From Bifidobacterium breve (GTDB taxonomy: Bacteria > Actinomycetota > Actinomycetes > Nanopelagicales > Nanopelagicaceae): a stretch of 59,192 nucleotides of DNA. Shown here piece by piece: positions 1,339-25,943 of the stretch. Each line of letters opens with the position of its first letter. The stretch's first letter is position 1. Where the stretch lies: assembly GCA_945889195.1 (NCBI GenBank), contig CAMDBB010000008.1, forward strand, positions 1 to 59,192. Reading direction: 5' to 3'. Under the pieces are notes generated by a model. It worked only from the letters and a program-made list of their open reading frames with translations. It was not told the origin of the DNA and made no database searches. The position numbers were made by a program, and so were the translations under genes.

Positions 1339-1416
1339 ACATCACGGAGTCTAAATGCGACTTACGGGTATCGCAACTTGACCTCTATTATCAGGGTCTT
1401 AAGCCAAGGGGGAAAA

Positions 1417-2907: not shown

Positions 2908-2915
2908 TTCGATAG

Positions 2916-3821: not shown

Positions 3822-3833
3822 AAAGGAATTGAT

Positions 3834-5747: not shown

Positions 5748-5757
5748 GAGCCCACTC

Positions 5758-6672: not shown

Positions 6673-6678
6673 GCGTCC

Positions 6679-7869: not shown

Positions 7870-8942
7870 GCGAGTCACCATTTCTCTACATGAAGAAGAA
7901 TTCCAAGACTGTTCTGTGGAATGACTCGGCAGATCCAAAAGAGCTCAAAGATGCGCTTACCTGGGGAATCGTTGGGGCAACATGTAATCCAGTAATCGCT
8001 CTTACCGCACTGAAGGCTGATCAAGAACATTGGGTTGGCCGTATCAAGGATTATGCCAAGGCACATCCAACTGCCACAGATGATGCAATCGGCTGGGCGA
8101 TGGTCAAGGAACTTTCTATCAGCGCTGCGAAGTTATTTGAGCCAGAGTTTGAGAAACAGAACGGCCGCAATGGACGTCTTTCCATTCAAACAGATCCACG
8201 GAACTTCAGAGATGCAAAGGCGCTTGCTGACCAGGCGGTTGAGTTCTCTCAACTTGCTAAGAATATGATTGTAAAAATTCCAGTTACCTCTGAGGCAATT
8301 GCCGCCTTTGAAGAAGCTACCTATCAAGGCGTCAGCATTAATGCCACTGTCTCATTCTCAGTTGCTCAAACAATCGCGGTAGCTGAAGCAATCGAGCGCG
8401 GACTTAAGCGCCGTGAAGCAGAAGGAAAAGATATTTCTCAGATGGGGCCTGTCTGCACCATCATGGTTGGTCGCGTTGATGACTGGGTAAAGGTTGGTGC
8501 AGAGAAGATGGGTGCGAAGGTAGACCCTGAGATTCTTGAATGGGCTGGTGTTGCTGTCTTTAGACATGCTCACAAGGTCTATACCGAGCGCGGCTATCGC
8601 ACACGTTTATTGTCGGCTGCATTCCGTAATCACATGCACTGGTCTGAAATCATCGGTGGCGACTCTGTAATTTCACCTCCATACGCATGGCAGGTAAAGA
8701 TCAACGAAATGGGTATTACCCCGAACCTCAGTAGCGTTAATGAGCCAATAGAGGCGCGCATCCTTGATCCACTCCTTGAAAACTTCCCAGAGTTTAGAAA
8801 GATGTATGACGTTGATGGCTTAAAGGTAGAAGAGTTCACCCACTTTGGTGCAACTCTGCGTACCTTGCGCGGCTTTTTGCAATCAGTCAATGATCTCGAA
8901 TCATTTGTTCGTGATGTCACCGTCCCAAATCCAGATAAGTAA
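7866..8942 (+). CDS. transaldolase-family protein in the inositol operon
   Basis: A 358-residue protein of the transaldolase/class I aldolase superfamily. The visible signature is NMIVKIPVTSEAIAAFEE, whose Lys corresponds to the Schiff-base lysine of transaldolases, preceded by QTDPRNFRD and followed by GVSINATVSFSVAQ. It is clearly diverged from housekeeping Tal. The start ATG 7866 overlaps the preceding stop by four bases (ATGA). Because the operon has no iolJ aldolase, this protein is a candidate for the carbon-carbon cleavage step or another aldol step. That is inference from context only. Confidence 0.88.
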   Translation: MSESPFLYMKKNSKTVLWNDSADPKELKDALTWGIVGATCNPVIALTALKADQEHWVGRIKDYAKAHPTATDDAIGWAMVKELSISAAKLFEPEFEKQNGRNGRLSIQTDPRNFRDAKALADQAVEFSQLAKNMIVKIPVTSEAIAAFEEATYQGVSINATVSFSVAQTIAVAEAIERGLKRREAEGKDISQMGPVCTIMVGRVDDWVKVGAEKMGAKVDPEILEWAGVAVFRHAHKVYTERGYRTRLLSAAFRNHMHWSEIIGGDSVISPPYAWQVKINEMGITPNLSSVNEPIEARILDPLLENFPEFRKMYDVDGLKVEEFTHFGATLRTLRGFLQSVNDLESFVRDVTVPNPDK

Positions 8943-8951
8943 AGGAAAGCC

Positions 8952-9974
8952 ATGAGAACTCTGCCAAAGCCACATATCTTTATAGCTGCAGAATCCAAGC
9001 CGCTTCGCTGGGGAATCTTTGGCGCTGGCTGGATTAGTGAAGCGATGATAAAGACCGCTCAACTCAACTCCAACCAAGAGTTTGTGGCAATCGCATCACG
9101 TACGCCGGGCAAGGCTGAAGGCTTTGCACAGAAGTGGAACCTTCCTTCATTCCACAACTCTTATGAAGAGCTCGTTGCACGCGATGATATTGATGCGGTT
9201 TATCTAGGAACGTTGCCATCAGATCGCCTCGAAGTTGCCTTGATTGCCATCAACGCTGGCAAACATGTCTTAATTGAAAAGCCGATCACGATGGATCTCG
9301 CTGAAGCTGAGCAGATCTACGCAGCTGCCAAGGCGAAGAAGGTTTTGGCCCTGGAGGCGATGTGGACTCGCTTCTTGCCACAAATGGATATTGCCCGTCA
9401 GTTAGTTGCTGATGGAACTCTTGGTGAAGTAGAACTTGTTATTTCTAACTTCTGCCAAGCCAACTTAGCTGTTCCACGCTTATTTACCATCGGTGGCGGT
9501 AACCCAATTATCGATATGGGTATCTATCCAATCGCTTTTACACAACAGTTCTTAGGTGAACCAACAGAGATTCACTCATTCGGAAAGCTTCATCACAATC
9601 AAATCGATGAAGAGACCCATACCTTTATGCGTTATGCCGATGGCTCACGCGCAAACTTCGTTCTCTCAGCTCGCACAACTCTGCCCCATTGGGCCGGCGT
9701 ATCTGGCAGCAAGGGTGCGCTCACCTTCGGTACCCCATTCTTTACGCCCACATCAATCACTCTGCATGGACCTGAGTTCAACGGTGAGCAGACCACATGG
9801 GTTGATGACCTCGGGCTACCTGAACATTTGGGCCTGATTCACCAAGTTCATGCCTTTGCGCAGTACGTCGAACAAGGCCTCTTGGAATCACCTCTCTACA
9901 CCCATCAAGAATCTCTCAACAACATCAAGACTGCACTGACCATCGGAAACCAGATCGGAACCCGCTTTAAGTAA
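8952..9974 (+). CDS. Gfo/Idh/MocA family oxidoreductase (dihydrodiol dehydrogenase-like)
   Basis: A 340-residue dehydrogenase with the nucleotide-binding motif WGIFGAGWISEAM near residue 21 and the catalytic motif HVLIEKPITMD. The segment ALEAMWTRFLPQMDIAR is typical of the dimeric dihydrodiol/xylose dehydrogenase branch of the family. It begins 9 bases after the transaldolase-like gene with GGAAAG just upstream. It probably oxidises a cyclic polyol or sugar derivative linked to the inositol pathway. The exact substrate cannot be told from the sequence. Confidence 0.9.
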   Translation: MRTLPKPHIFIAAESKPLRWGIFGAGWISEAMIKTAQLNSNQEFVAIASRTPGKAEGFAQKWNLPSFHNSYEELVARDDIDAVYLGTLPSDRLEVALIAINAGKHVLIEKPITMDLAEAEQIYAAAKAKKVLALEAMWTRFLPQMDIARQLVADGTLGEVELVISNFCQANLAVPRLFTIGGGNPIIDMGIYPIAFTQQFLGEPTEIHSFGKLHHNQIDEETHTFMRYADGSRANFVLSARTTLPHWAGVSGSKGALTFGTPFFTPTSITLHGPEFNGEQTTWVDDLGLPEHLGLIHQVHAFAQYVEQGLLESPLYTHQESLNNIKTALTIGNQIGTRFK

Positions 9975-10010
9975 GTTCCACTACAACACAGTTAGGAATA
10001 GGCTCGGACA

Positions 10011-11018
10011 ATGACTCAGAAGCTAAGAATCGCAATTATCGGTGCTGGACGAATTGGGTATGTCCACGCCGGAAGCGTAAACGACACCCCTAACCTCGAA
10101 CTTATCTACGTGGTCGATCCCTTTGAAGAATCTGCAAGAAAGGTCATCGCTGACTTCGGCGGCAAGTATTCATCAGACCCTGTGGCAGTCATTAATTCTG
10201 GTGAGATAGATGCAGTCATTATTGGTTCACCTACGCCAACTCATATCCCACTTCTCCGTGAAGCGATCAACGCAGGTGTTCACGCACTCTGCGAGAAGCC
10301 ACTTGATTTAGATATTAAGAAAGTTGATGAGCTGCGTACACTTGCGAGCTCTGCAAAGATAAATATCACCCTCGGCTTTAACCGCCGCCAAGATCCACAA
10401 TTTAAAGCTGTAAAGCGCAAGGTAGAAGAAGGTCAAATCGGAACGATTGAGCAAGTCATCATGACAAGCCGTGATCCAGGACCTGCCCCACAGTCCTACA
10501 TCGCTGTCTCGGGTGGAATCTTCCGCGATATGACAATTCACGACTTTGATATGGCTCGTAACTTTGTGCCTAACATTGTTGAAGTATCAGCATTTGGCGC
10601 CAATAGCTTCTGCGACTACATCAAAGAAGAAGGCGACTTCGACAACGTTAGCGTTGTCATGAAGGGTGCCAACAACGAAATTATCACCATCATTAACTCA
10701 CGCCACTCTGCCTACGGATATGACCAGCGCATTGAAGTATTTGGTGACAAGGGCATGTTGCAGATCAGCAACCTTGGCCATTCAACTGTTCAGCTCTCTA
10801 ATAAGGATGCAACCGCAAGCGGTGAGCCGTATATGGACTTCTTCCTTGAGCGTTATGCCGCTTCATATCGCAATGAACTCAAGCTCTTTATCGAGGGAAT
10901 CAAGCAAGGCAAAGTCCTTGGCTCTACCTACGATGATGGCCGTGCGGCGCTTATCTTGGCTGATGCTGCACATGAATCTGCTCGAACAGGTAAAGCAGTC
11001 AAAGTTAACCTTAACTAA
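10011..11018 (+). CDS. iolG: inositol 2-dehydrogenase
   Basis: IolG oxidises myo-inositol to scyllo-inosose with NAD+, the entry step of the pathway. The 335-residue protein has IAIIGAGRIGYVHAG at the N-terminus, HALCEKPLDLDIKK as the EKP motif, and GFNRRQDPQFKAVKR followed by IHDFDMARNF, which is the usual IolG signature with its catalytic Asp/His. It is the last gene of the operon. It starts 36 bases after the preceding Gfo/Idh gene and ends tail to tail with the YciI gene, with no clear terminator between them. Confidence 0.93.
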   Translation: MTQKLRIAIIGAGRIGYVHAGSVNDTPNLELIYVVDPFEESARKVIADFGGKYSSDPVAVINSGEIDAVIIGSPTPTHIPLLREAINAGVHALCEKPLDLDIKKVDELRTLASSAKINITLGFNRRQDPQFKAVKRKVEEGQIGTIEQVIMTSRDPGPAPQSYIAVSGGIFRDMTIHDFDMARNFVPNIVEVSAFGANSFCDYIKEEGDFDNVSVVMKGANNEIITIINSRHSAYGYDQRIEVFGDKGMLQISNLGHSTVQLSNKDATASGEPYMDFFLERYAASYRNELKLFIEGIKQGKVLGSTYDDGRAALILADAAHESARTGKAVKVNLN

Positions 11019-13606: not shown

Positions 13607-14506
13607 ATGATGAGCGCAAATCTGCCGCATGATCCAAAGTGGAAGCGCGCCAATACTTTATTTGCCTCCCCTGATCAAAGTGCTGACATCGCATTAGTCG
13701 GAGTACCAGCACATAAAGGTTCAATTTCTCCGACTAACGCAGATCAAACTCCAGATGCAATCAGAAGTGCGTTGGCGCGTTATTCAACTTATTCAACTTC
13801 GCAGGGCGTTGATTTAAGCGGTCAATCATTTATCGATTTGGGAAATATTGAATCACCTGATGGTCCTGAAGGCATCGTACGAGTTGGTGCTTTTGTGAGT
13901 GGATTATTGGCAAAACACAAGTTAGTAATTGCACTTGGTGGTGATAACTCAATTACCTACTCAGTTGCATCTGGTTTATGGCCAGACTTATCAAAGATCG
14001 GATTGATCACTTTCGATGCACACCATGATCTTCGTGATGGCCAATCAAATGGTTCACCTGTTTGGCAATTGATTCAGGCTGGTTTACCAGGAAAAAACAT
14101 TGTGCAGATTGGAATTGCCGACTTTGCCAACAGCGCGGAGTACGGCCAGCGCGCAAAAGAAAATGGCATCACAGTGTTTTCACGTGCGCAGTTGCGTGAG
14201 ATGACGATTGCTAAAGTATTAAAGAAGGCGTTGGAAATTGCCGGTGCTGATGGTCATGAGATTTATGTTGATCTAGATGTAGATGTATGTGATCGCAGCG
14301 TTGTTCCGGCATGCCCAGCAGCAATGCCAGGTGGAATTTCTGCAGATGAACTGCGTCAAGCAGCGCTTCTACTGGGTGCTGATAAGCGAGTTCGTGCCAT
14401 CGACATTACCGAGATAGATGCTGCAGCTGATTCAGATGATCAACGCACTGTGCGCTTAGCTGCTCTCTTGGTTCTTGAAGCAGCCGCAGGCTTTGCAACT
14501 AGATAA
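13607..14506 (+). CDS. hutG: arginase/agmatinase superfamily enzyme, probable formimidoylglutamase
   Basis: A 299-residue ureohydrolase. The manganese ligands are visible in GGDNSITY, FDAHHDLRDG and VDLDVDVCD, with IDITEID near the C-terminus. Ureohydrolases of this type cleave arginine, agmatine or N-formimidoyl-glutamate. The tail-to-tail overlap with a histidine ammonia-lyase relic supports formimidoylglutamase of histidine degradation. Translation seems leaderless, from ATG 13607 or 13610. No other hut genes are in the window, so the pathway may be incomplete here, and agmatinase remains possible. Confidence 0.8.
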   Translation: MMSANLPHDPKWKRANTLFASPDQSADIALVGVPAHKGSISPTNADQTPDAIRSALARYSTYSTSQGVDLSGQSFIDLGNIESPDGPEGIVRVGAFVSGLLAKHKLVIALGGDNSITYSVASGLWPDLSKIGLITFDAHHDLRDGQSNGSPVWQLIQAGLPGKNIVQIGIADFANSAEYGQRAKENGITVFSRAQLREMTIAKVLKKALEIAGADGHEIYVDLDVDVCDRSVVPACPAAMPGGISADELRQAALLLGADKRVRAIDITEIDAAADSDDQRTVRLAALLVLEAAAGFATR

Positions 14507-14696
14507 GTTCTTTAACGACTTCTCTTGCAGCAGAAACAATTGATCCTGAATTAACCAAAGTTGTCGCCGCTTCAAGTTCTGGAGATAAGAAACGATCTGG
14601 CCCAACTCCCGGAACAACTTTTCTCAACTCTTTAACAACTCGACCTGTTGCAGGTGATGGGTTCAAACCTTCGCGGAGTTCAATGGCACGCGCTGC
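14499..14696 (-). pseudogene. hutH: C-terminal remnant of histidine ammonia-lyase
   Basis: Read on the minus strand, 65 codons plus a stop code for a segment starting AARAIELREGLNPSPATG and containing PGVGPDRFLSPELEAA, ending in REVVKELI. This is the pattern of the C-terminal end of HutH. The rest of the roughly 500-residue enzyme is absent: upstream, the similarity stops near 14696 and the frame meets a stop at 14747-14745, inside the 3' end of the sugar isomerase gene. The relic's stop overlaps the end of hutG by eight bases, as expected for a once-functional convergent pair. It marks the edge of the adjoining sugar island. Confidence 0.75.
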
Positions 14697-14737: not shown

Positions 14738-15613
14738 CTAACCCTTAAGAGCCGCCTCAATATTGCGCATAGAAACCCCTGATTTTTCTTCAGCCGGCTC
14801 ACGCGCTTTATCTTGTTCGCTCATCATCCAATCCGAGAAACCAAACTTTTCAAGTTCTGCAAATAGCCCAACTAGGTCAAGTGCGCCTTCGCCAGCTGGC
14901 ACAAAGAGAAAGTGATCTTCAACAGCTACGTGCATACGTTCGTATTCACCAGCTATAAGTTTTTTCAGAATCTCTGGATCAACATCTTTAATGTGAACAT
15001 GTGTAACACGTTTTCCGTATTCGACTACGCCAGCAACGGGATCTCCCCCACCAACCAGCCAATGTCCAACATCAAGACACATGCCAACCAAATCGAAATC
15101 AAGAAGGGCCATTAGCTTTCTGGTCTCTTCAGGAGTTTCAATATAAGTGGCTGCGTGTGGATGGAATGAAGAACGAATTCCGGCGGCTTTCGCTAACTGC
15201 GCGAATTTAGCGATGTGATCAGCTAAGCGCTGATATCCAGTTTCATTTAGGTGCGGACCTAGATGAGCGCGACCTGCATAAATATCTCGTTCTGAAGTTC
15301 CATCAACGGCAAATACCAACATTTCAACTTTGGCACGAATAGCCGCGTCAACGATCTCTTGCGAATGAGCATCGGCAGTTGGAAGTGGGCCGTTCTCATC
15401 GCAGGCAATATCCAGGTACTGCTCGGCAGTAGCCAAGTTGTTCTTCTTCATTTGGTCTAAGAACTTATCCGAATTTGCCTGCTCAACTGAGATCTGGATT
15501 CCTTTGAAACCATAAGCCGCAATGCGACTCAAGAAATCTTCGGACTTTGCCATCTCAAATTTCCAGTTGAGGGCAACGATTCCGACTTTAGCTTTTGCCA
15601 AGCCTTGACTCAT
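14738..15613 (-). CDS. sugar phosphate isomerase/epimerase-like TIM barrel
   Basis: A 291-residue xylose isomerase-like TIM barrel protein (AP endonuclease family 2). Metal-ligand candidates are in SSFHPHAATYIETPEE, VGMCLDVGHWLVGGGD, VTHVHIKDVDPEI and the terminal EQDKAREPAEEK. The family includes sugar epimerases, inosose isomerases and keto-glycoside lyases. It is the last gene of the minus-strand group with the glycosidase (2-base gap) and LacI regulator. With the nearby Gfo/Idh enzyme it could process an oxidised sugar, but the substrate is not determined. Confidence 0.88.
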   Translation of the reverse strand: MSQGLAKAKVGIVALNWKFEMAKSEDFLSRIAAYGFKGIQISVEQANSDKFLDQMKKNNLATAEQYLDIACDENGPLPTADAHSQEIVDAAIRAKVEMLVFAVDGTSERDIYAGRAHLGPHLNETGYQRLADHIAKFAQLAKAAGIRSSFHPHAATYIETPEETRKLMALLDFDLVGMCLDVGHWLVGGGDPVAGVVEYGKRVTHVHIKDVDPEILKKLIAGEYERMHVAVEDHFLFVPAGEGALDLVGLFAELEKFGFSDWMMSEQDKAREPAEEKSGVSMRNIEAALKG

Positions 15614-15615
15614 TT

Positions 15616-16911
15616 CTATTTCACCTCATGCAGCAAGTCGATAAGAATTGTTGACCAACTGAAGTCAGGTGCGCCACGTCCAAATGCGGTTTGTGGGTTG
15701 TAGTACTCGCGGAAGCCGCTCTTTTGCACCATTGCAATGCTTTGGTTTGCAATGTGACGGGCTAGATCGTTGCGACCATGGCGAGTTAAACCGCGAGCGA
15801 TATACCAATTGCTATTCATCCACGAAGGACCGCGCCAAACAAGTGTTCCTCCCACTGTATCTGGGCGATAAGTCGGATGGTTCATAGCAGTGCTTGGGAT
15901 TGGATAGTCAGCCCAATACTCTTCAGGATTTAAGATTCGTGCGATCAGTAAATCTGCCTTGCGCTTATCTAGATCAGGCAAGAGCAGTGGCATCAAACTC
16001 ATAAAGGTGTTTACGCGCAGTTGCTTATTCTCTTTACCGTTTACGCCGTAATAAAGACCATCTTCTTCATTCCAGCAAAGTTCATCGAGTGATTTGCGAG
16101 CCTTGGCTGCTCGAGCTTTGTATTCGTCGTGTCCGGCTTGATCTCCAACTTGCTTGCAGAGATCGGCAAGTACATGGAGATTTTCAATGTAAATTGTATT
16201 GGTCATTACATCGGCAACGACAAAGTGATTTAGCTCAATCATCTTCTTTGGATCACGATCAAACTTGTCATATGGATCGCAGATTGAATGCCAGCCACGA
16301 TCCCAAGACTCGTGTTCTTCATCCTGGATATTCATGATTTCATCCCAGACTGGAGAATGATCAATACCGGTCTCATCTGGTTGAACTACACGAACCAATC
16401 CATCACCATATGGATTGCGCACGGTATGAAGCCATTCGTAGAACCGCTTCACAGCTGGCAAAACTTCGTTGATGAATTCAACTCCACGACCACGCTTTGC
16501 AACAGCGCTTACCGCTTCAGCCAAGAGTGGTGGTTGCATCTCATCAGAAAGGTATCGACTGCGGAATGCGATCGCATAGGTTGAAACCATCTCTTCATAG
16601 GCATCGCGCTGCCAAAATGTTACGTGTGAGACAAAGCCATCCGAGTGCTGGTTCTTTAGCAAGCTCTTCAGCTCTGCCTCAGCTTTTTGAAGGTCTACAT
16701 GGCTAAGTGCGATTGCGTGGAAGCAAGAATCCCAGAACCACTGAAATGGGTAGGTAACAGAAGAAGGACAGGTGAAATCAAAGTCATGACCGCACCAGTC
16801 GGCGTGGCCGCGTTGGCGATTACGTTCATGTATCGCTGCGACTTCATCCTTTACCCACTTAATATCCGCCTCAGTTGGAGAGTGGTCCTTGAGTGTCATC
16901 TTGCGCTCCAT
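15616..16911 (-). CDS. MGH1-like/GH63-type glycoside hydrolase (cytoplasmic)
   Basis: A 431-residue (alpha/alpha)6-barrel glycosidase. Signature segments are YPFQWFWDSCFHAIAL near the N-terminus, VQPDETGIDHSPVWD in the middle, and GGTLVWRGPSWMNSNWYIAR with FREYYNPQTAFGRGAPDFSW near the end. This resembles mannosylglycerate/glucosylglycerate hydrolases and other GH63-like enzymes. There is no signal peptide, so it should act inside the cell on an imported glycoside. A GAGGAAAG ribosome-binding site precedes ATG 16911. It lies between the LacI gene and the TIM-barrel isomerase. The natural substrate, perhaps a compatible solute or disaccharide, is a guess. Confidence 0.88.
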   Translation of the reverse strand: MERKMTLKDHSPTEADIKWVKDEVAAIHERNRQRGHADWCGHDFDFTCPSSVTYPFQWFWDSCFHAIALSHVDLQKAEAELKSLLKNQHSDGFVSHVTFWQRDAYEEMVSTYAIAFRSRYLSDEMQPPLLAEAVSAVAKRGRGVEFINEVLPAVKRFYEWLHTVRNPYGDGLVRVVQPDETGIDHSPVWDEIMNIQDEEHESWDRGWHSICDPYDKFDRDPKKMIELNHFVVADVMTNTIYIENLHVLADLCKQVGDQAGHDEYKARAAKARKSLDELCWNEEDGLYYGVNGKENKQLRVNTFMSLMPLLLPDLDKRKADLLIARILNPEEYWADYPIPSTAMNHPTYRPDTVGGTLVWRGPSWMNSNWYIARGLTRHGRNDLARHIANQSIAMVQKSGFREYYNPQTAFGRGAPDFSWSTILIDLLHEVK

Positions 16912-16939
16912 TCATCTTTCCTCGTTGTTTTCTTATCTT

Positions 16940-16982
16940 TATTTGGTATCTATTTGGTATCTATTTGGTCTTTTATTTGATC
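16940..16982. repeat. 11-bp tandem repeat between LacI and glycosidase genes
   Basis: The unit TATTTGGTATC occurs twice exactly (16940-16950, 16951-16961), then as TATTTGGTC (16962-16970) and as a degenerate TATTTGATC (16974-16982) that overlaps the stop codon of the LacI gene. It fills the leader of the glycosidase gene. Confidence 0.8.
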
Positions 16983-17980
16983 TTCATCGTTGATTTTCGT
17001 AAAACCAACTCTGAAGGGATTACCCGTTTCTTTCTAGCCTTTGAACCTTTTATCAAATCATCGAGTATCGCCATCGCCTCAACGCCGAGGTCATATTGAT
17101 TCTGATTAATAGTGGTTAGCCCCGGAGTCACATAGCCACTCAAGGCAATATCGTCGTAACCCACAATTCCAACCTCTTGCGGGATTTTGATCTTCATCTC
17201 AATCAGCGCATGCATTGCGCCAATGGCGGTCAAGTCGTTGTGCGCAACGATTCCAAATGGCGGCTTGAACTTCTTGGCAATTTCTTCGGCAACTCTGGCG
17301 CCGGCTTCAAGTGTGTCGTCACTAAACAAAATCTCTAACTTGGTTTTTCCAGCACCGCGTTTTACGCCTTCTAAACGTAGTGATCCAAATCCTTTTTCGA
17401 GTGAATTGCCGATGTAAATAATCTTGGGATATCCACACTTAACTAAATGAGCGGCAGCGATTTCACCGCCCTCAAAGTCTTGGCTAGATACCGTTGGTAA
17501 ATCGGTATCCTCTTTTTGAACGTTAACCAGAATAATTTTCGCTCTCTGAGATAAGAGTTTCTCACGATGGCGCTTTAAGACTCCATCGGCACAGACGATT
17601 ATTCCGGCAGCTCTATGGCTTGCCAGGAAGTCTAGGTATGAAATTTCGCGTTCTGAATCTTCAGCCGAATTGCACAAAATCAGGGAATATCCTCTTCGCT
17701 GAACTTCATCTTCAATACCGCGCACCATTTCTGGATAGAAAGGGTTTTGGATATCGGTAAGAATCAAGCCAATCATTGTTGAACTTTGGCGCCGTAACGA
17801 CTGAGCAATCGATGATGGCTGGTATTGAAGTTCAGTTATGCTCTTATTAACTTTTGCTCTCGTCTTGGCGGCTACGTAGCCAACTCCAGCTATTACTCGG
17901 CTCACAGTGGCAGTACTAACGCCGGCATGGGAGGCGACATCGGAAATTGTTGCCTCTGTAATTCGCTTCTGACTACCCAT
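16973..17980 (-). CDS. LacI family transcriptional regulator
   Basis: A 335-residue repressor-type regulator. The N-terminal helix-turn-helix is clear in TISDVASHAGVSTATVSRVI, followed by the hinge region YQPSSIAQSLRRQSS and a periplasmic-binding-protein-like sensor domain (GLILTDIQNPFYPEMVRGIE, PFGIVAHNDLTAIGAMHALI, VGIVGYDDIALSGYVTPGLT). I chose ATG 17980; a GTG at 17989 is an alternative. It is transcribed away from the Gfo/Idh gene at 18127 and together with the glycosidase and isomerase genes, so it probably controls this sugar island, including its transporter. Confidence 0.95.
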   Translation of the reverse strand: MGSQKRITEATISDVASHAGVSTATVSRVIAGVGYVAAKTRAKVNKSITELQYQPSSIAQSLRRQSSTMIGLILTDIQNPFYPEMVRGIEDEVQRRGYSLILCNSAEDSEREISYLDFLASHRAAGIIVCADGVLKRHREKLLSQRAKIILVNVQKEDTDLPTVSSQDFEGGEIAAAHLVKCGYPKIIYIGNSLEKGFGSLRLEGVKRGAGKTKLEILFSDDTLEAGARVAEEIAKKFKPPFGIVAHNDLTAIGAMHALIEMKIKIPQEVGIVGYDDIALSGYVTPGLTTINQNQYDLGVEAMAILDDLIKGSKARKKRVIPSELVLRKSTMKIK

Positions 17981-18126
17981 GAAAATCACCCGCCTGCGCT
18001 AAAGATTTGCCTCAAAAACCCTAGATTTACGCTGTATGAATTCGATACCATACCACTCTGCAACTAGGAATTCACTAGCAATCGCAAGATGCTTTTGCCG
18101 ATGAATTTCAATAATCGAAGGAATTT
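17981..18126. promoter_or_regulatory. divergent control region of the sugar island
   Basis: This 146-base region separates the LacI gene from the divergent Gfo/Idh gene. It contains an inverted repeat GTAT-7-ATAC at 18034-18048 and GCAA-7-TTGC near 18087-18103; either could be an operator. A GAAGGA ribosome-binding site precedes ATG 18127. No conserved LacI operator was identified with confidence. Confidence 0.35.
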
Positions 18127-19245
18127 ATGAATCGCGTACGTGTGGGTTTAGTCGGCGCAGGTGCAGTGGCATCTTCGGTACATCTACCAATTTTGACTCG
18201 CCGTAGCGATCTCTTTGAAGTCGTAGCGTTAGCTGATTTAAATTTAAAGGCCACACACGTGCTCGCCGATCGATTCGGGATCTCGCGCGAGAATTGTTTT
18301 GATTCACCAATGAAGTTGATTGCTTCAGGTTCAATCGATGCCATTATGGTTTTGAATTCCGGCTCACATGCTGAAGTAGTTGTAAGCGCACTTAACGCTG
18401 GCCTCAATGTTTTCTGTGAAAAGCCACTTGCATATGCCAAGCGCGAGATGAAGGAAATAGAGGCGGCTCTTAAATCATCAGGTAAGTCGCTGATGATCGG
18501 CTATATGAAGACTTTTGATTCTGCGGTAATTGCAGCTAGAAAAGCAATCACGAGCCGTCCTCGCACAGTTGATGTCCTTGTCTTGCACCCAAGTGGAGAT
18601 AGCCAATTGGTTACCTCTGAACTTTCAGTAGATCTCCCACAATCTCCAGCAGGGCTTAATGAAATTTTCTCCAAGGTAAAGAACGAAATTCAGGTTGAAG
18701 CCCTCGGTGAAGCTGCTGCAAAATCTTTTGGAGATTTGTACACCGACATTATCCTTGGCAGTGTCATCCACGAGTTCTCAGTGCTCCGTGCCTTAGATGT
18801 TCATATAACTGAAGTTGACTTTGTAGATCGCTGGCCAAATCCAGGTCATAGCGAATCAATTATTATTCACGCCCGAACCGCAGATGGCGTTCGAGTTACT
18901 ATTCGCTGGTTCTACCTTGATCAATACCCTGCCTATCAAGAAGAAATCCGCTGGGTAAATGAGGAGGAAGGCCATCACATAATCTTCCCTAGCCCTTATA
19001 TCTTGCGTATTCCTACCCAGTTGATAACTACTCGCCGCAGAGGCATTGATCACGAAATGGTTCGAACTAATTCATATACCGCCTCATTTGAAAATGAATT
19101 AGTTGCCTTCCATCACTTAGTCATGACTGGCAAGCAGGATGCTGATCCAATTGCGGATGGGTTAGAGGATTTAGAGATCGCTCAAATGATTGCAAGGAAG
19201 ATCGCTGAGCGAGAAGGTACGCCGGTCAAAGGCGATATTGCCTAG
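18127..19245 (+). CDS. Gfo/Idh/MocA family oxidoreductase (sugar island)
   Basis: A 372-residue dehydrogenase with VRVGLVGAGAVASSVHLPIL as the nucleotide-binding start, the catalytic NVFCEKPLAYAKREM motif and MIGYMKTFDSAVIAAR after it. Its C-terminal domain is longer than usual and contains IILGSVIHEFSVLRALDVH. It is divergent from the LacI regulator and converges on the PHP gene with a 2-base gap. It could oxidise the imported sugar, or its hydrolysis product, to a keto form before the TIM-barrel enzyme acts. This pairing is common in bacterial sugar loci; the substrate is unknown. Confidence 0.88.
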   Translation: MNRVRVGLVGAGAVASSVHLPILTRRSDLFEVVALADLNLKATHVLADRFGISRENCFDSPMKLIASGSIDAIMVLNSGSHAEVVVSALNAGLNVFCEKPLAYAKREMKEIEAALKSSGKSLMIGYMKTFDSAVIAARKAITSRPRTVDVLVLHPSGDSQLVTSELSVDLPQSPAGLNEIFSKVKNEIQVEALGEAAAKSFGDLYTDIILGSVIHEFSVLRALDVHITEVDFVDRWPNPGHSESIIIHARTADGVRVTIRWFYLDQYPAYQEEIRWVNEEEGHHIIFPSPYILRIPTQLITTRRRGIDHEMVRTNSYTASFENELVAFHHLVMTGKQDADPIADGLEDLEIAQMIARKIAEREGTPVKGDIA

Positions 19246-19247
19246 CT

Positions 19248-20453
19248 TTACTTCTTAAATCCGATGGCGTGATACATGCCGTTGGAATCAGTCAGTGAGT
19301 AAAGTCCACTTTCTCCACTGACGGTTGTGAAATCTTTGGTAATCAGAGTTTTCTTTCCAGATGGGGCAAGCAAGGTCATTCCATCTCCCCCATCAACGAC
19401 CATCTCATCCTCTAGTGGAAACACGACAGGTGCTTTTGGATCGGCCGATATCGCCACTCGTCCATCACTTAGCGCAGCTAAAACTTGGCTCTGAGTAACT
19501 TCATTATCCTCAGTATCGATCTCAACCCAAGTAGTTGGTTCGCCAGGCAGACCATCTGATGTGTAACGATGGAAATCACTTCCGCCAATTGGAATCTTTG
19601 AACCGTTATCGCGCCACCATTCAAATGGCTCAGTTGTCTTGCGGTCCCAGGATGAGTGCCAAAGTTCAGTTAGATCTATTCCACTTGGCGTATCTCTGCG
19701 CCAGTGGCAAGGAGCTGAGAGCGGATGATTAATTGAGAGAAGCCCACCTTGGTTCTTGGTCTGACTTAGCCAGCGATCCGTTGCTTCGCGATAATCAACC
19801 CAATCGCTATGTCCAAAAGAATTTGCATGTCCGCTATCGGTTGTTACTTCTTGTCCGGCCAATAGGTTGATACCGCTAAATTTTGAAACTTCAGGCAAGA
19901 ATCTATGGTGGCTAGTTGTGTTGTGATCTGTGATCGCTAGAAGTTCTAGCCCTCGTTCTGCCGCCAGGGATGCCAATTCATTTAAAGTTAGATCTCCATC
20001 AGAATGAACAGAGTGAGTATGGAAATCTGCAGGAAACCAGCGATAACCTGATCTCGACTTTAACTTTCGTCGTGGTGGGAGAATCGGTTTAGCAGAAGCA
20101 AGATTCGCATCTGGGAATACCGGCTTTCCTAAGGTAACTTCAACTTCGATCTTTACTCCATCTGGATCGACGCGATGTAAACCAAGTGAAACAAACCAAG
20201 TGCCGGCACGTATCGGACCCGGAAGATAACCAGGAGTTGAATCGACTTCACTTACTGCAACGTGGTCGCGTTCGCTGCCGGAGAAGCCACGGAAACCAAC
20301 TGGATCAAAGAGGCCAAGGTCGATTACCGATAGAAAACTATTGTGGCGCATGCTTACCGTTACGCCTTCGACACCTGCTGGCACATCAAATGGAACATAC
20401 TGATAAATAGAATCAGCGCGATCCTGGGGCGTATATACCTTTGAGTAAAGCAT
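19248..20453 (-). CDS. CehA/McbA-type PHP-domain metallohydrolase
   Basis: A 401-residue protein. Residues 1-130 form a beta-rich N-terminal domain; the PHP phosphoesterase-like domain follows. Metal-binding motifs are in order: ADFHTHSVHSDGDLTLNE, LLAITDHNTTSHHRF, LLAGQEVTTDSGHANSFG, LSINHPLSAPCH and IGGSDFHRY. Known CehA/McbA proteins include carbaryl hydrolases, but most are uncharacterised. It is followed by the ABC transporter genes on the same strand in the order SBP, permeases, ATPase, PHP, so it is the last gene of that operon. A role in hydrolysing an ester or phosphate bond of the imported compound is possible but not shown. Confidence 0.87.
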   Translation of the reverse strand: MLYSKVYTPQDRADSIYQYVPFDVPAGVEGVTVSMRHNSFLSVIDLGLFDPVGFRGFSGSERDHVAVSEVDSTPGYLPGPIRAGTWFVSLGLHRVDPDGVKIEVEVTLGKPVFPDANLASAKPILPPRRKLKSRSGYRWFPADFHTHSVHSDGDLTLNELASLAAERGLELLAITDHNTTSHHRFLPEVSKFSGINLLAGQEVTTDSGHANSFGHSDWVDYREATDRWLSQTKNQGGLLSINHPLSAPCHWRRDTPSGIDLTELWHSSWDRKTTEPFEWWRDNGSKIPIGGSDFHRYTSDGLPGEPTTWVEIDTEDNEVTQSQVLAALSDGRVAISADPKAPVVFPLEDEMVVDGGDGMTLLAPSGKKTLITKDFTTVSGESGLYSLTDSNGMYHAIGFKK

Positions 20454-20465
20454 GAGTTAAGCGAA

Positions 20466-21533
20466 TTAGTACAAATCTTCGCTTGTCTTATTGTAAAGAA
20501 GCGATCGGCCAGGTTCTGGCTTTAAGTGCACAGTGTCTCCCATTGCAGGTTCTGAACCATCTGGCGCAGTTCCGCGAACCAAAATTCCATTGCAGTCTGC
20601 GGTTACCAGATAGTGAGTGCCAAGGTTTTCGGTAACTTTCACAACGCCAGATGCGATCCCAGATCCTGGACCTGATACCAATGAAACATATTCGGGGCGC
20701 ACACCAAAGACGACCTGATCACCAGTACGAGCGGTAGAAGCATGTTCTGGAATGTCGAAGGTCATTGAGCCAATAACAACCTTGCCATCATTAACCAATC
20801 CATCAAGCAAATTCATTGGAGTAGATCCAATAAAACTGGCAACAAATATATTTGCTGGTTTATGGAAGAACTCGGCAGGGCTTCCTACCTGTTTAATGCG
20901 GCCCTTATCCATAACAGCCATGCGGTCTGCTAAGGCCAGAGCTTCTGATTGATCATGTGTAACCAAAATAGTTGTAACGCCGAGTTCGCGCTGTAACTGC
21001 TTTAGGAATGTTCTGGCCTCAAGGCGCAGACGTGCATCTAGGTTTGATAGTGGCTCATCGAAGAGATAAAGGCTTGGTGTACAAGCCATTGCACGCGCAA
21101 CTGCAACGCGCTGTTGTTGACCACCTGAAATCTGCCCCGGTTTGCGATCTAACAACATCTGAATAGAAAGAGCTTCGGATGCTTGTGTAACTCGTTTATT
21201 GATCTCTTCCTTCGAAAACTTTCTAACCTTCAGAGGATAAGAGATGTTCTCCAAAACGTTCATGTGTGGATATAGCGCATAGTCCTGAAAGACCATCGCA
21301 ATATTGCGCGCACCTGGAGTCAAGAAGGTTACATCTTTGCCTTCAAATGAAATTGTGCCGCTAGTGGAGGATTCAAGACCGCCCAAAGTGCGAAGCAAGG
21401 TGGTCTTTCCGCAGCCCGAAGGACCTAGCAGGGCGAAGAATTCGCCATCCTTGATCTCAAGGTCGAGCTCATCAAGGGCGCGTACGCCACCAGGAAATAC
21501 CTTGGTGATCTTTTCAATTGATACGAAGCTCAT
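20466..21533 (-). CDS. carbohydrate ABC transporter ATP-binding protein (MalK/UgpC-like)
   Basis: A 355-residue ATPase of the CUT1 sugar importer class. Visible motifs are Walker A GPSGCGKTTLLRTLGG, Q-loop MVFQDYALYPHM, signature SGGQQQRVAVARAMA, Walker B LYLFDEPLSNLDARLR and the switch His in LVTHDQSEAL. The C-terminal regulatory OB-like (TOBE) domain follows from about residue 235. It overlaps the permease gene upstream by a single base. It should energise uptake through the two permeases and the binding protein of the same operon. Confidence 0.95.
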   Translation of the reverse strand: MSFVSIEKITKVFPGGVRALDELDLEIKDGEFFALLGPSGCGKTTLLRTLGGLESSTSGTISFEGKDVTFLTPGARNIAMVFQDYALYPHMNVLENISYPLKVRKFSKEEINKRVTQASEALSIQMLLDRKPGQISGGQQQRVAVARAMACTPSLYLFDEPLSNLDARLRLEARTFLKQLQRELGVTTILVTHDQSEALALADRMAVMDKGRIKQVGSPAEFFHKPANIFVASFIGSTPMNLLDGLVNDGKVVIGSMTFDIPEHASTARTGDQVVFGVRPEYVSLVSGPGSGIASGVVKVTENLGTHYLVTADCNGILVRGTAPDGSEPAMGDTVHLKPEPGRSLLYNKTSEDLY

Positions 21534-22399
21534 TAGCCCTTAATCCCTCCATAGAAACGGAAACCATATTTTTTATTTACATAGAAGTACATAGCAAGAA
21601 CCGGAATTGTGTAGATCAAAGAAAAGGCAGCCACGGTACGGAATACCGCTTGTCCACCATCGTTATAGAAGCTATACATCATCACAGCCGCTGGTTGTTT
21701 ATTTATATCTCTTATCAAGATAAATGGGGCGAGGAAGTTGCCCCATGCCTGAACAAACGACCAGACGAAGATAACTGCTAGGCCTGGTCGAATAATTGGG
21801 GTAACCACATCCTTAAGGATGCGGAAAGAGCTTGCTCCGAATATCTGTGCTGACTCTTCATAGCTCTTTGGAATTGAGTCCGTGAAATCCTTCAAGATAA
21901 ATATCGCTGCAGGTATGAGGCCGCCTGTTAAAACCAGAACAACACCTTGATATGTATCAATAAGGTTTAATCGCAATGAGAGCAAGAAAAGCGGAACCAT
22001 CGCTGCGCTGCCGGTAACAATTGATGAGAAGAGAAGAAGTATGTATAGGAAAGCATCTCTACCCGCGAATTTGATTCGGCTCAGCACATAAGAAGCTGGA
22101 GCACCAACAAGAATTACTGCAAGGCCGCTTCCTGCTGAGAAAATTGCCGAGTTCATCAATGAGCGATAGGCATAAGGATTCTCTGCCATCTCAGAGAAGT
22201 TTCCTAGCCCCCAATTAGGCCATTTGATTCGGAAGGTTGGATCTGAATCAAAAGGCGCTAGGACTAACCACATCAAAGGGATCGCGAAGAAACTTACTGC
22301 CAATAGTACGAAGGCTAAGGTCGAAACCTTTTCAACTTTTGTGCGTTCATCGATGCGACGCTTATCTTGCAGTTGGATTTGCTTACCGAAGAGTCTCAT
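21533..22399 (-). CDS. carbohydrate ABC transporter permease (MalG-like)
   Basis: A 288-residue membrane protein with six predicted helices. The conserved cytoplasmic EAA loop reads EESAQIFGASSFRILKDVVT followed by PIIRPGL, placed in the C-terminal half as in MalG-type permeases. It overlaps its neighbours on both sides by one base (TAATG-like), which suggests strict co-translation. The start is at ATG 22399. Confidence 0.93.
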   Translation of the reverse strand: MRLFGKQIQLQDKRRIDERTKVEKVSTLAFVLLAVSFFAIPLMWLVLAPFDSDPTFRIKWPNWGLGNFSEMAENPYAYRSLMNSAIFSAGSGLAVILVGAPASYVLSRIKFAGRDAFLYILLLFSSIVTGSAAMVPLFLLSLRLNLIDTYQGVVLVLTGGLIPAAIFILKDFTDSIPKSYEESAQIFGASSFRILKDVVTPIIRPGLAVIFVWSFVQAWGNFLAPFILIRDINKQPAAVMMYSFYNDGGQAVFRTVAAFSLIYTIPVLAMYFYVNKKYGFRFYGGIKG

Positions 22400-23304
22400 T
22401 ACTTCTTACCCTTCCGAGACATGCGCAGAACTATCAATGAGATAACTAAGTTCAGGAAAAGCATGATCGCTGCAATCGCTGATCCATAACCAAAATCTAG
22501 ATAACGAAGTGCGCTGTCATAGATAAAGATGGGCAGAATCTGGGTCTCGCCTCCTGGGCCGCCACCTGTGAGCAAATAAGGCCCAAAGTCATTGAAGGTC
22601 CAAAGGGTGATCAAAAGAAGGTTTGTAAGAATGTATGAGCGCGCAGAGGGAAGAACGATATTTCGCAGTTGCTGCATCTTTGAAGCTCCTGCAACGCGCG
22701 CAACCTCAATATGTGATTTTGGAATCGATGCGATTGCGGCGCTAAAGAGCAGCATCGAAAAGGCGGTACCACGCCAGATGTTAAAGATAATGATCGAGAG
22801 CATTGGATAATCAAGTAACCAGTCGATATTTACACCCAAGATTGCATTGAGCGTGCCCTCCTCATTATTAAAGAAGGCAAACCATAAGAATGCAACGACT
22901 GAACCAGGAACGATCCAAGCAAAGATAACTATTAACTCAACGATGTTACGAATTCTTGGAGAAAGTTCATTTAATACCCAAGCAAGAATGAAGCCAAGTA
23001 ACGCTTGGCCGAAGATGGCAGAGCCCAATACATAAATGATAGTTAACTTGAGTGAACTTAAAAATTGTGGGTCGTTTAGCGCCTTAGTGAAGTTATCAAT
23101 TCCAACGAAACTGGGATTTAGCGCTTCGATACCTACGAGTTTGTAATCAGTTAAACCTAGGTAGAGCGTCCAGAAAGCCGGAATGAGGAGAAAGATTCCA
23201 ATAAAGATAAGCGACGGAGAGAGGAAAGCGGTCGCAGCGCCTTTACCAAGAACAGAGTTCCCGGGCCTTGCGGCCCGGGAACCCTTCATCGTCTTAGACT
23301 TCAT
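22399..23304 (-). CDS. carbohydrate ABC transporter permease (MalF-like)
   Basis: A 301-residue membrane protein with six predicted helices after a basic cytoplasmic tail. The EAA loop is EVARVAGASKMQQLRNIVLP near residue 220. The segment FIGIFLLIPAFWTLYLGLTD is typical of the first helix of MalF/UgpA-type subunits. It is 6 bases downstream of the solute-binding protein gene and overlaps the second permease gene. It forms the translocation channel of this importer. Confidence 0.93.
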   Translation of the reverse strand: MKSKTMKGSRAARPGNSVLGKGAATAFLSPSLIFIGIFLLIPAFWTLYLGLTDYKLVGIEALNPSFVGIDNFTKALNDPQFLSSLKLTIIYVLGSAIFGQALLGFILAWVLNELSPRIRNIVELIVIFAWIVPGSVVAFLWFAFFNNEEGTLNAILGVNIDWLLDYPMLSIIIFNIWRGTAFSMLLFSAAIASIPKSHIEVARVAGASKMQQLRNIVLPSARSYILTNLLLITLWTFNDFGPYLLTGGGPGGETQILPIFIYDSALRYLDFGYGSAIAAIMLFLNLVISLIVLRMSRKGKK

Positions 23305-23310
23305 GCAGCC

Positions 23311-24846
23311 TTAGTTGCTGGCTACGTTTGCTGCTCCAACAAGATCCTTCAATGCGGTCTCATAAGCTGCTGCAGTTTCTGCAACTGACTTACCTTGAAC
23401 GATTGAGGTTGTTGCCTTCTGTAGCAATACAGAAACAGCGTTGTAGTTAACACTTGCTGGACGGAAGAAGGTATTTGGAATTGCTTTCTCAAATACGAAC
23501 TTCAAGCAAGGGTCAGACTTGAGAACAGCTGTGTTCACATCTTGACGTTGTGAAATACGAACTGCTCCACCGATAGCCATGAATGAAGAAACAGGCTCTT
23601 TAGCGTTGATGAACTGTAGAAGCTCCCAAGCAGTTGACTTGTTAGCTGAATTTGGATTAAGTGCGTATCCACTTCCGCCTGACATGCTCATAAAGCTTTG
23701 GCCATTAACGCCTGACTTTGCTGTTTGTGCAGGGATCATCGCGAAGCCGACATTGGTATTGCGATCGGCCATCTTGAAGTTACCTGAAACAGGGTTGATA
23801 ACACCTCTCCAGAGGTAGTCACCTTCGATGATCATTGCAAGCTTTCCTTCAGCGAAAGCCTTAAATGATTCGTTGCGACCATTTTCTCCAGCAAGGAGCT
23901 GCCAGTCAGAGTTTCCGACCTTGTCCTTGTTGTACACAGAATCGTAGAAGCCAAGCATGTCGCGAACAGCCTTTGTATTTCCTGTCCACTTCTTGGTCTT
24001 ACCGTCGTAGATCAAGCTACCTGCTCCGCCAAGAAGGTTGAGGAAGCCCTGCATAGCAGTTGCTTCGCCCATTCCATCTCCAGCATTTAGCTGTAGAGGC
24101 ATTACAGAAGGAGTTTTGGTCTTGATTGTATTGGCAGCAGTTAGAAGTTCTGCCCATGACTTAGGTTGCCAGTTTGTTGGAAGTCCAGCATCAGCAAATA
24201 ACTTCTTATTGAAGTAGATGATGCGTCCGTCTGTTCCTTGTGGAACTCCGTAATTCTTTCCGCCGTAGCTCATTACACCTTGGACAGATGCTGGAATTTG
24301 CTTCCAACCTTCCCATGCGTTAACTGCCTTAGCTCCAACAACTGATTCAAGAGGCTTGATGTATCCGGCTTCAGCAAATTCTGCCACCCAGAAACCATCA
24401 AGTGCCATTACATCTGGACCACGCTTTGAAGCAAGGTCGAGAGCTAGCTGAGTCTTAAATTGATTGTCATCGATCCCTGCTGGTGTGAAGGAAACGTTTA
24501 CTTGCTTTCCTTTTTCAGCATTTGAAAGTTCGAATTGTGGAATTACATAGTTTTGAATCCATGTTGCGGTTTGGTTGTTCTTTCCACCAAGGATTGCGTT
24601 TGCGCTAATTGAGACGTTGTAAACCTTTGTATCTGTCCAGATCTTCTTTCCTGATACTGATTTACATTCGACTTTGATCTTTCCGACCTTTGCCTTAGCG
24701 CCAACCTTTACACATGTGCCGCCAACGCTTCCGGTTGCAGCAGATGCAGATGGAACAACAGATACAAGGAGTGCGCCAGCAAGGCTTGCCCCCAGTACTG
24801 CCTTAAATGTGCGACTTGATGTTCGCACCGAGAGTGTGTTTCGCAT
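23311..24846 (-). CDS. extracellular sugar-binding protein of the ABC transporter
   Basis: A 511-residue solute-binding protein of family 1. A signal peptide is clear (LGASLAGALLVSVVPSASAA). It is followed by a module of about 40 residues with two cysteines, GTCVKVGAKAKVGKIKVEC and GKKIW, before the binding fold begins. Binding-protein signatures include LALDLASKRGPDVMALDGFW and EGKLAMIIEGDYLW. No lipobox cysteine is present, so anchoring may depend on the extra module. It is the first gene of the transporter operon; the ligand is probably a sugar or glycoside handled by the adjacent glycosidase. Confidence 0.93.
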   Translation of the reverse strand: MRNTLSVRTSSRTFKAVLGASLAGALLVSVVPSASAATGSVGGTCVKVGAKAKVGKIKVECKSVSGKKIWTDTKVYNVSISANAILGGKNNQTATWIQNYVIPQFELSNAEKGKQVNVSFTPAGIDDNQFKTQLALDLASKRGPDVMALDGFWVAEFAEAGYIKPLESVVGAKAVNAWEGWKQIPASVQGVMSYGGKNYGVPQGTDGRIIYFNKKLFADAGLPTNWQPKSWAELLTAANTIKTKTPSVMPLQLNAGDGMGEATAMQGFLNLLGGAGSLIYDGKTKKWTGNTKAVRDMLGFYDSVYNKDKVGNSDWQLLAGENGRNESFKAFAEGKLAMIIEGDYLWRGVINPVSGNFKMADRNTNVGFAMIPAQTAKSGVNGQSFMSMSGGSGYALNPNSANKSTAWELLQFINAKEPVSSFMAIGGAVRISQRQDVNTAVLKSDPCLKFVFEKAIPNTFFRPASVNYNAVSVLLQKATTSIVQGKSVAETAAAYETALKDLVGAANVASN

Positions 24847-25052
24847 ATCTATTTCAGCTTTCTACTAGGGATAGAAATGGAACTGCTAGCGGGCCTCTCA
24901 ACGCCTATACTCGGGAAATGTGGTAACGATGACAGGTTTGCTTAGCGCTGAGTTTACGCATGGGAAGGTGGGGTAGGTCAATGGATTAGCGTAACAATTT
25001 GGTGAAGTCGGAGAAAACTCTTGGGGCGCTGGGCGAGAACTGAGGATGAGTT

Positions 25053-25943
25053 TTACTCTTTGCCCGACTTTTCCAGATCTCGGGTCGCATAGAGACTTGT
25101 CAGCGCTGTTATAGCCAAGGCGGAGACAATTACAGTCAGGCTCACCTCGAGCGAGATATCCGGAACCTTGACGCCATTTTCATGCAGCGCATGCATGATC
25201 ATCTTGACGCCGATAAATGCCAAGATAAATGAAAGGCCCCGTCCAAGGTGAATCAGGCGATCCATTGCACCTTGCAGCAAGAAGTAGAGCTGACGAAGCC
25301 CCATCAGAGCAAAGATATTTGCAGTAATTACAACGTAAGTACTTGTTGTTAGACCGAGGATTGCTGGAATTGAATCAAGGGCGAAGACTAGATCGGTTAC
25401 TCCTAAAGCAATTAGCGCAATAGCAAAAGTGCTTAGCCCACGGTTGCGAAGGAAGCTAATTAACTTACCTTCATCCTCTTCTACTTCTTCTTTTTCATTG
25501 ATTAGTTTCCAGGCGGTGAAGATTAAGAATGCACCAAAGACATAGAAGGCTGAGGTAAAGCGAGTTACAAGTGCGACTCCAGCAAAGATCAAAATCACGC
25601 GTAGAACAATTGCGATAAGGATTCCGAAGAGAAGAACAAGTTGCTGGGATTCTTTCTTTACCTTGAGCGTTGAAATCAAAATGATAAATACAAAGATGTT
25701 GTCGACAGAGAGTGCGTATTCAGTCAGCCAACCTGCAAAGAATTCAGTCCGCAGTTGATCTGATGTCCAACGTGGCATTAGCAAACCAAAAGTTATAGCC
25801 GCCGCAACATAAAAGAGCGTCCAACCGAGCGCCTCTTTTGTGCTGGTCTCCTTGTTGCGATGAGCAACAGCAAGAGCTAAATCAAAGATGATTACTGCGG
25901 CAAGACCACCGATAGTTAATAGCTACTCGGTTGAACTAATCAT
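25053..25943 (-). pseudogene. second terC interrupted by an in-frame amber codon
   Basis: The natural start is ATG 25943, which overlaps the stop codon of the RNase H/phosphatase gene (ATGA). From there the frame reads MISSTE, then TAG at 25925-25923, then LLTIGGLAAVIIFDLALA and continues without interruption to 25053 as a TerC family protein (LSVDNIFVFIILI, GVTDLVFALDSIPAILG). The codon after MISSTE is probably a former Tyr or Trp codon. The nearest usual start after the stop is TTG 25784 or ATG 25778, which would remove the first two helices and one conserved acidic residue. It may be a nonsense mutation, a sequencing error or a gene under suppression. Confidence 0.75.

Follow-up and report, generated by a model that had tools for sequence, protein, structure and literature searches.

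A sugar import and hydrolysis island beside a myo-inositol operon may serve the use of glycosylated inositol

Which compound is taken up and broken down by a complete sugar importer and four enzymes encoded a short distance from a myo-inositol operon? The question is raised by an island of nine genes at positions 14738-24846 of contig CAMDBB010000008.1 (C8; assembly GCA_945889195.1, family Nanopelagicaceae); the window is the whole stretch of this contig that was analyzed, 59,192 nucleotides. The source genome (G000) has 1.43 Mb and is 97.6% complete. The nearest named organism in our scan for relatives of the island glycoside hydrolase (GH; best 79 loci) is Candidatus Planktophila lacus MMS-21-148 (L032), a freshwater actinobacterium of the acI group whose GH is 95% identical; it has GH, TIM and Gfo, the core of the island, and no PHP orthologue was found in it. 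We slightly favor the answer that an alpha-glycoside of inositol, probably phosphorylated, is taken up and broken down by the island, which would be the front end of the neighboring myo-inositol pathway. The link to inositol is well supported, while the sugar, the phosphate and the order of the reactions are what we infer from it. The key clue is the myo-inositol (iol) operon, which was absent from the sequence-only reading in which the island had been described.

This operon lies on the plus strand (1378-11018) and consists of iolA, an iolB-like gene, iolD, an IolE-like gene, a Gfo dehydrogenase gene, a transaldolase-like gene, a second Gfo gene and iolG. The products of iolA (680.4 bits, cut-off 448.5), iolD (814.4 bits, cut-off 715) and iolG (10011-11018; TIGR04380, 358.2 bits, cut-off 355) score over the model cut-offs, the iolB-like gene falls just under its own (201.5 bits, cut-off 205) and the IolE-like gene reaches 131.6 bits against 290. 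None of these eight genes encodes an importer or other transporter; the island, with its importer, starts 3.7 kb from the end of the operon. There, a tight minus-strand run holds the genes for a binding protein, two permeases, an ATPase and a PHP hydrolase (gaps of 6, -1, -1 and 12 bp). A second minus-strand run has LacI, GH and a TIM barrel (gaps of 61 and 2 bp), and a Gfo/Idh dehydrogenase gene is divergent from LacI and convergent with PHP. All nine genes are open reading frames at the positions given in the sequence-only reading, and profile matches confirmed the families named there. The same gene order recurs in family genome G007 (locus L023) and in the metagenome-assembled genome (MAG) L034, and the Chloroflexota MAG L049 has almost the same set (binding protein, permease 1, permease 2, ATPase, PHP, GH, LacI, Gfo, TIM); therefore the island is not a chance assembly.

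Conservation was followed in 151 genomes of the family, source genome included, with orthologue E-values of 1e-20 for GH and PHP, 1e-40 for Gfo and 1e-50 for TIM. GH was found in 16 genomes. Independent occurrence of the genes in relatives, which would have spoken against a common set, is nearly absent: TIM (14 of the 16 GH genomes) and PHP (4 of the 16) were found in none of the other family genomes, and Gfo (17 genomes) accompanies all 16 GH genes and occurs otherwise only in G148. Thus GH and Gfo, usually with TIM, are a conserved core, and PHP and the importer are a module present in few genomes. The idea of one conserved set holds for GH, Gfo and usually TIM, which are kept together, but not for the importer-plus-PHP half, which is absent from most GH genomes; the island is a conserved functional unit of core and module.

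The core goes with inositol genes. iolD scores over its cut-off in 45 of the 151 genomes; it is present in all 16 GH genomes (15 over the cut-off, G037 with iolD in two pieces on two contigs) and over the cut-off in 30 of the 135 genomes without GH (32 when the fragments of G011 and G117 are included). This co-occurrence has a Fisher p of about 6e-10 (2e-8 if G037 is counted as lacking iolD, 1.5e-9 if the G011 and G117 fragments are counted), where, as in all Fisher tests here, shared ancestry is ignored. The two genes lie less than 14 kb apart on one contig in 11 of the 16 (G000, G010, G033, G037 with its partial iolD, G043, G048, G058, G070, G088, G106 and G112); a further link in G124 is inferred across a contig break and stays outside this count. 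In G010, iolD, iolB and iolC, all over their cut-offs, adjoin GH, TIM and Gfo, and clusters with iolD- and iolB-like neighbors are also found in G048, G058, G070, G088, G106 and G112. The G043 island, which has no TIM, begins one gene from IolE-like genes and iolA/B/D. In G106, G112 and G070, GH is accompanied by a different importer, by ROK kinases and by a fusion of GDPD with inositol monophosphatase. Across the phylum, GH was detected (E<=1e-60) in 2 of 396 genomes, namely the source genome and one at 33% identity.

Outside the family, a GH scan of 84,980 species genomes gave 426 relatives, of which the best 80 matches (79 loci), chosen by similarity, were analyzed. Among these, genomes outside the family whose GH is at least 48% identical to that of the island carry iolD in 10 of 12 cases (9 over the cut-off, one in two pieces). 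The Vicinamibacteria MAG L051 has iolD (930 bits), iolB (295), iolA (718), an ABC importer and iolG (304.8 bits for the piece given, cut-off 355) followed by a GH about 50% identical to that of the island. In one outside class, iolD is present in 5 of 6 GH genomes and in 16 of about 143 others (21/149 overall; p 0.0002), with G551 assumed to be a class member and the comparison genomes not screened for GH. Further loci outside the family combine similar genes, with GH homologues about 50% identical in Chloroflexota, Acidobacteriota and Dormibacterota: IolE-like, IolG-like, importer, PHP, LacI, GH and ROK genes in the Dormibacterota MAG L057; part of an importer, an EEP-family protein, Gfo, LacI and GH in the Acidimicrobiia MAG L047; importer, PHP, GH and a GH38 alpha-mannosidase in the Chloroflexota MAGs L055 and L056; and, within a single locus of each of the Acidobacteriota MAGs L048, L050 and L053, GH with GH38, PHP, a binding protein and two permeases (GH38 was Pfam-checked for L050 and L055).

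The neighbors differ between branches of GH. Around the 12 outside loci with at least 48% identity, PHP is present in 8, and PHP or an inositol-type gene in 10 (L054 and L075 have neither); around 40 loci of other GH branches the counts are 0 and 1 (L095, a weak iolD match), the grouping being made by residue table and GH identities. The contrast gave p 6e-7 for PHP and 4e-8 for PHP or an inositol-type gene, computed with 41 comparison loci including L097, which a later residue table placed among the D-type rows (Asp in place of W177 of the mycobacterial hydrolase MhGgH), hence 40 in the final count; 11 D-type outside loci at 36-42% identity were left out (PHP in 2/11, inositol-type gene in 2/11). 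Another branch, mostly SAR202/Dehalococcoidia (L062, L065, L067, L071-L073, L078, L079, L081 and similar), has Glu at position 177, a residue found in 28 of the 64 loci L047-L110. Except for one weak match, no PHP or inositol-type neighbors were seen in the Glu177 branch, and no iolD in the genomes tested; its substrate must differ from that of the island GH.

If inositol is the link, Gfo and TIM should be considered beside the enzymes of its catabolism. The TIM barrel (14738-15613, minus strand; AP_endonuc_2, PF01261, 90.6 bits) is nearest to IolE in both NCBIfam (TIGR04379, 116.8 bits, cut-off 290) and PDB, and the IolE-like gene of the operon has stretches similar to its HPHA, CLDxGH, HVHxKD and SEQD. 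Gfo (18127-19245, plus strand; PF01408) has IolG as its best NCBIfam match (94.2 bits, cut-off 355, residues 4-143 only), keeps the EKP motif and a His, and carries about 40 inserted residues when compared with the iolG of the operon. In 4 of the 16 GH genomes (G010, G037, G058 and G088, 73-92% complete) no other gene matches IolG better than the island Gfo. A keto-sugar role had been suggested for the pair; instead, both resemble distant inositol-pathway enzymes, with IolG and IolE as best matches well below their cut-offs, and the context is myo-inositol catabolism. In the source genome, the substrate of Gfo and TIM may be a different isomer of inositol or the glycosylated inositol.

The keto-sugar idea leads to the strongest rival, redox cleavage, where, as when levoglucosan or C-glycosides are broken down, Gfo would oxidize C3 of the sugar and TIM would eliminate the aglycone, with GH and PHP working on different substrates or on side groups. 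The best solved match of Gfo is indeed DgpA (7xr9, E 1.7e-20), which we take to be a C-glycoside 3-oxidase. According to PMC10066097, the levoglucosan set has a Gfo, a PF01261 barrel and an ABC importer, as does the island; both enzyme families are broad. However, the DgpA match is limited to residues 1-140, TIM is nearest to IolE, and Gfo tracks the iol genes even in G148, where GH and TIM orthologues were not found at the family E-values. Against the levoglucosan dehydrogenase model NF052479 the island Gfo has 39.0 bits (cut-off 650); a Gfo of the operon (6679-7869) has 258.6. With a hydrolytic GH beside TIM, redox cleavage is also unnecessary, and we consider it unlikely.

A complete CUT1 sugar importer is encoded on the minus strand by the genes for the solute-binding protein (23311-24846; SBP_bac_1, PF01547, 114.8 bits), permease 1 (22399-23304; PF00528), permease 2 (21533-22399; PF00528) and a UgpC/MalK-type ATPase (20466-21533), for which the UgpC subfamily model NF008653 is the best NCBIfam match (388.8 bits, cut-off 432). 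Judged by eye, the binding protein has a signal-like N-terminus. In its AlphaFold model (pLDDT 81) the closest solved folds are mostly binding proteins of the di/oligosaccharide and glycosylglycerol type, including 5ci5, 8art (maltose), 1eu8 (trehalose/maltose) and 7ofy (sulfoquinovosylglycerol). Between the signal sequence and the ligand-binding domain, residues 42-80 (24607-24723, minus strand) form a small two-cysteine beta unit, common to the family homologues L023, L029 and L034 and not seen in those from outside the family.

This maltose/trehalose class of folds would agree with ordinary uptake of an alpha-disaccharide, the iol genes being nearby by chance or through shared regulation. 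GH also matches the trehalase family PF01204 (58.5 bits, cut-off 21), far under its match to PF22422, and in some genomes GH and iolD are apart. Yet a trehalose-type reading ignores the co-occurrence and adjacency with iol genes both inside and outside the family, and appears quite improbable.

The LacI-family regulator (16973-17989, minus strand; PF00356 and PF13377) would control the set. No strict CG-centered palindrome was found upstream of the island genes. A TGNNATCGNT-like word occurs at 24919, upstream of the binding protein gene, and at 18035, in the stretch that separates LacI from Gfo, and G007 and G043 have counterparts; in a matrix made from the genera of these two genomes only, the sites rank 2nd and 14th in the window. 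At iolA no such site is among the best matches, so that a role of the island LacI in regulating the iol operon is unsupported. Ahead of iolA (1261-1277), a perfect inverted repeat of 7 bp around a 3-bp center is a candidate operator for a different regulator, not for the island LacI. A short tandem repeat of CAAATAGATAC-like units lies in the 61 bp (16912-16972) that separate LacI from GH.

The PHP protein (19248-20453, minus strand; PF02811) is of the CehA/McbA type with an N-terminal beta-sandwich (NF038032, 154.1 bits, cut-off 80), and the metal-site residues H145, H147, D152, D176, H177, E202, H243, D293 and H295 are invariant in 13 aligned homologues. Its N-terminus, judged by eye, is not signal-like. 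The best solved fold for its model (pLDDT 85) is 3e38 (Z 23.2, rmsd 3.8, 243 aligned), followed by others such as 2anu (Z 21.7), RNase AM and 2yb1; their descriptions name phosphoesterases or nucleases, some known and some predicted. The N-terminal part resembles the C-terminal sandwich domain of a subtilisin (3afg, Z 11.2, 90 aligned). Among relatives without PHP, L025 has a GDPD-inositol monophosphatase fusion in its importer cluster, with counterparts in L042 and L044, and L047 has the EEP protein; L059 and L066 have GDPD and PHP together. The folds and these GDPD and EEP genes suggest a phosphoester in the substrate. Removal of an ester or phosphate would be a plausible function for PHP, which we regard as a proposed phosphoesterase.

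The glycosidase (15616-16911, minus strand) had been called GH63-like, a fair label, and its more specific Pfam family is MGH1-like_GH (PF22422, 283.5 bits). Its N-terminus, like that of PHP, does not look like a signal peptide by eye, in agreement with the sequence-only reading, and the enzyme is apparently cytoplasmic. The closest solved relatives are Thermus TTHA0978 (MGH; 2z07, E 3.4e-44) and a mycobacterial hydrolase (GgH; 6g3n/5ohc). With the residue roles given in PMC6608630, catalytic acid D184 and base E402 of GH align to D182 and E419 of MhGgH, and the -1 sugar site is kept (W60, D61, Q126 and W359, corresponding to W42, D43, Q115 and W376). Among the glycerate contacts, Y36 and W40, and Y88 in the window protein, are kept, whereas W177 is replaced by D179 and Y375 by V358. 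The R216/Y222 loop of MhGgH falls in a gap of the island GH alignment; it is variable and aligns differently in a second alignment, where the 12 nearest outside loci have only non-Arg residues at R216. The simplest reading of these residues is an exo-acting, inverting alpha-glucosidase or mannosidase whose aglycone is new, and which the gene context would name as inositol; accordingly we refer to GH as a proposed alpha-glycosyl-inositol hydrolase. Besides the kept -1 site, the sugar is hinted at by ROK kinases in GH clusters, directly beside GH in L041, L044, L063 and L057, and by the GH38 alpha-mannosidase genes in L048, L050, L053, L055 and L056.

Scavenging of galactinol, or of another plant or algal inositol galactoside, would share the inositol link, and the alpha linkage would fit an inverting enzyme of this group. 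But the sugar subsite keeps the glucose/mannose residues of the MGH/GgH group, where galactose could still be accommodated, and no role is left for the phosphoesterases or GH38, which makes galactinol highly improbable. Glucosylglycerate or mannosylglycerate, substrates named in the sequence-only reading and suggested by the closest solved relatives and the kept Y36, W40 and Y88, is set aside on the active-site residues as extremely improbable: most glycerate contacts of MGH/GgH are gone, no Arg equivalent to R216 is seen, and the NCBIfam model GluglyHdase gives 155.8 bits, below its curated cut-off of 550.

Several observations weigh against the glycosyl-inositol reading. GH and iolD are about 144 kb apart in G073 and G085 and on different contigs in G007 and G025, and two GH genomes outside the family, G551 and G554, have no iolD over the cut-off. 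In G148, where Gfo stands beside iolA/B/D and IolE-like genes, the iolD frame has an in-frame stop. TIM and Gfo score far under the IolE and IolG cut-offs, and since the operon of the source genome already has an iolG over its cut-off and an IolE-like gene, the island pair must be either redundant or different. The change of W177 to Asp follows iolD (18/20 D loci and 1/22 others, Fisher p 1e-8; L061 and L066, from the same genome, both counted, L104 left out), but represents only 2-3 independent changes on the tree, is not significant once ancestry is counted and serves as a hint. None of the 151 family genomes has GH38, so that mannose is not supported within the family. No operator for the island LacI was among the best matrix matches upstream of iolA. 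As for the phosphate, PHP occurs in only a quarter of the family GH genomes, so the GH reaction does not depend on it; at a number of GH loci, G073, G085 and L051 among them, a phosphoesterase gene was not seen; and L059 and L066 have both PHP and GDPD, so PHP is not a simple stand-in for GDPD. Moreover, CehA and McbA are carbamate hydrolases, and PHP need not act on phosphate.

The best reading of the substrate is alpha-glucosyl- or alpha-mannosyl-inositol, possibly phosphorylated, for example a phosphatidylinositol (PI)-glycan head group. The binding protein and CUT1 importer would take up a small glycosyl-inositol, disaccharide-sized to judge from family and fold. PHP would then remove the phosphoester part, a step that GDPD, the GDPD-inositol monophosphatase fusion or EEP may perform in relatives. 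The cytoplasmic GH would hydrolyze the alpha-glucosyl or alpha-mannosyl bond by inversion, releasing sugar and a presumed inositol. Gfo may oxidize the inositol ring and TIM may dehydrate or isomerize the ketone, which would pass to iolD, iolB and iolA, with the whole set presumably under LacI. The earlier view that a glycoside is probably imported intact, then hydrolyzed and oxidized inside, is supported. The weakest step is the source, for which a PI-glycan head group would be the most natural; candidates are the mannosylated PI of actinobacteria, fungal mannosyl-inositol-phospho lipids and glycosylphosphatidylinositol (GPI) glycans. A wider proposal is possible, though doubtful: an undescribed route that scavenges PI-glycan head groups, in which alpha-mannosyl- or alpha-glucosyl-inositol (phosphate) is split by a new hydrolase subfamily that frees the inositol and is served by an importer and a phosphoesterase of its own, shared by streamlined freshwater actinobacteria, Chloroflexota, Acidobacteriota and Dormibacterota. 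Among the matches listed, all open-licence papers, there was no description of bacterial glycosyl-inositol import and hydrolysis with iol genes.

The surroundings have further features. The operon contains a transaldolase/FSA-family gene (7776-8942) and no iolC. At E<=1e-40, G000, G007 and G033 gave no IolC match, and all three have a transaldolase/FSA gene near iolD, which hints at a possible aldol cleavage of 5-keto-2-deoxygluconate without phosphorylation. Among the ten genomes tested, IolC was also not found in G043, G070 and G112, yet these have no such gene near iolD. Five genomes beyond those tested for IolC (G016, G040, G055, G061 and G083) have a gene of this type. Between TIM and hutG there is a hutH remnant (14502-14696, minus strand) of 65 C-terminal residues, 97% identical to hutH of L017. 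As G085 (L017) has hutU-hutI-hutH at the corresponding place, and L034 has matching reading frames, the source genome seems to have lost these genes here. Genes for TerC-family membrane proteins flank the region (211-1209, TerC/Alx family, 367.7 bits; 25053-25784, named by eye).

The family consists of streamlined freshwater actinobacteria whose genomes are small, and what their importers carry is for the most part known by inference. If the glycosyl-inositol reading is true, it points to a class of dissolved compounds seldom considered, the core for whose use is kept by about one tenth of the family genomes (16/151) and by other phyla. It would also provide an aglycone for a branch of MGH1-like glycosidases now labeled by likeness to glycerate enzymes.

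Compared with known systems, the island GH shares with MGH and GgH the Pfam family PF22422, the catalytic Asp/Glu pair, the -1 subsite and a length of about 430 residues, but most +1 glycerate contacts are lost, the context is one of inositol genes, and, on a tree whose root was placed on the two references, the protein falls in a branch of its own. The PHP protein shares with the CehA/McbA metallohydrolases the NF038032 match over the cut-off and the PHP motifs, while it lies in a sugar/inositol cluster and not in a carbamate pathway. With the keto-sugar routes of the levoglucosan (LgdA-B1-C) and DgpA type the island has in common a Gfo/Idh dehydrogenase, a PF01261 barrel and an ABC importer; it differs by the hydrolytic GH, by genes that track iolD and by the low score of its Gfo against NF052479. 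With iol operons it has in common the IolG-like and IolE-like enzyme classes, and iolA/B/D are next door or clustered in relatives. Beyond these, the island has a CUT1 importer of the disaccharide class, a glycosidase and a PHP hydrolase, and its Gfo and TIM are far below the IolG and IolE cut-offs.

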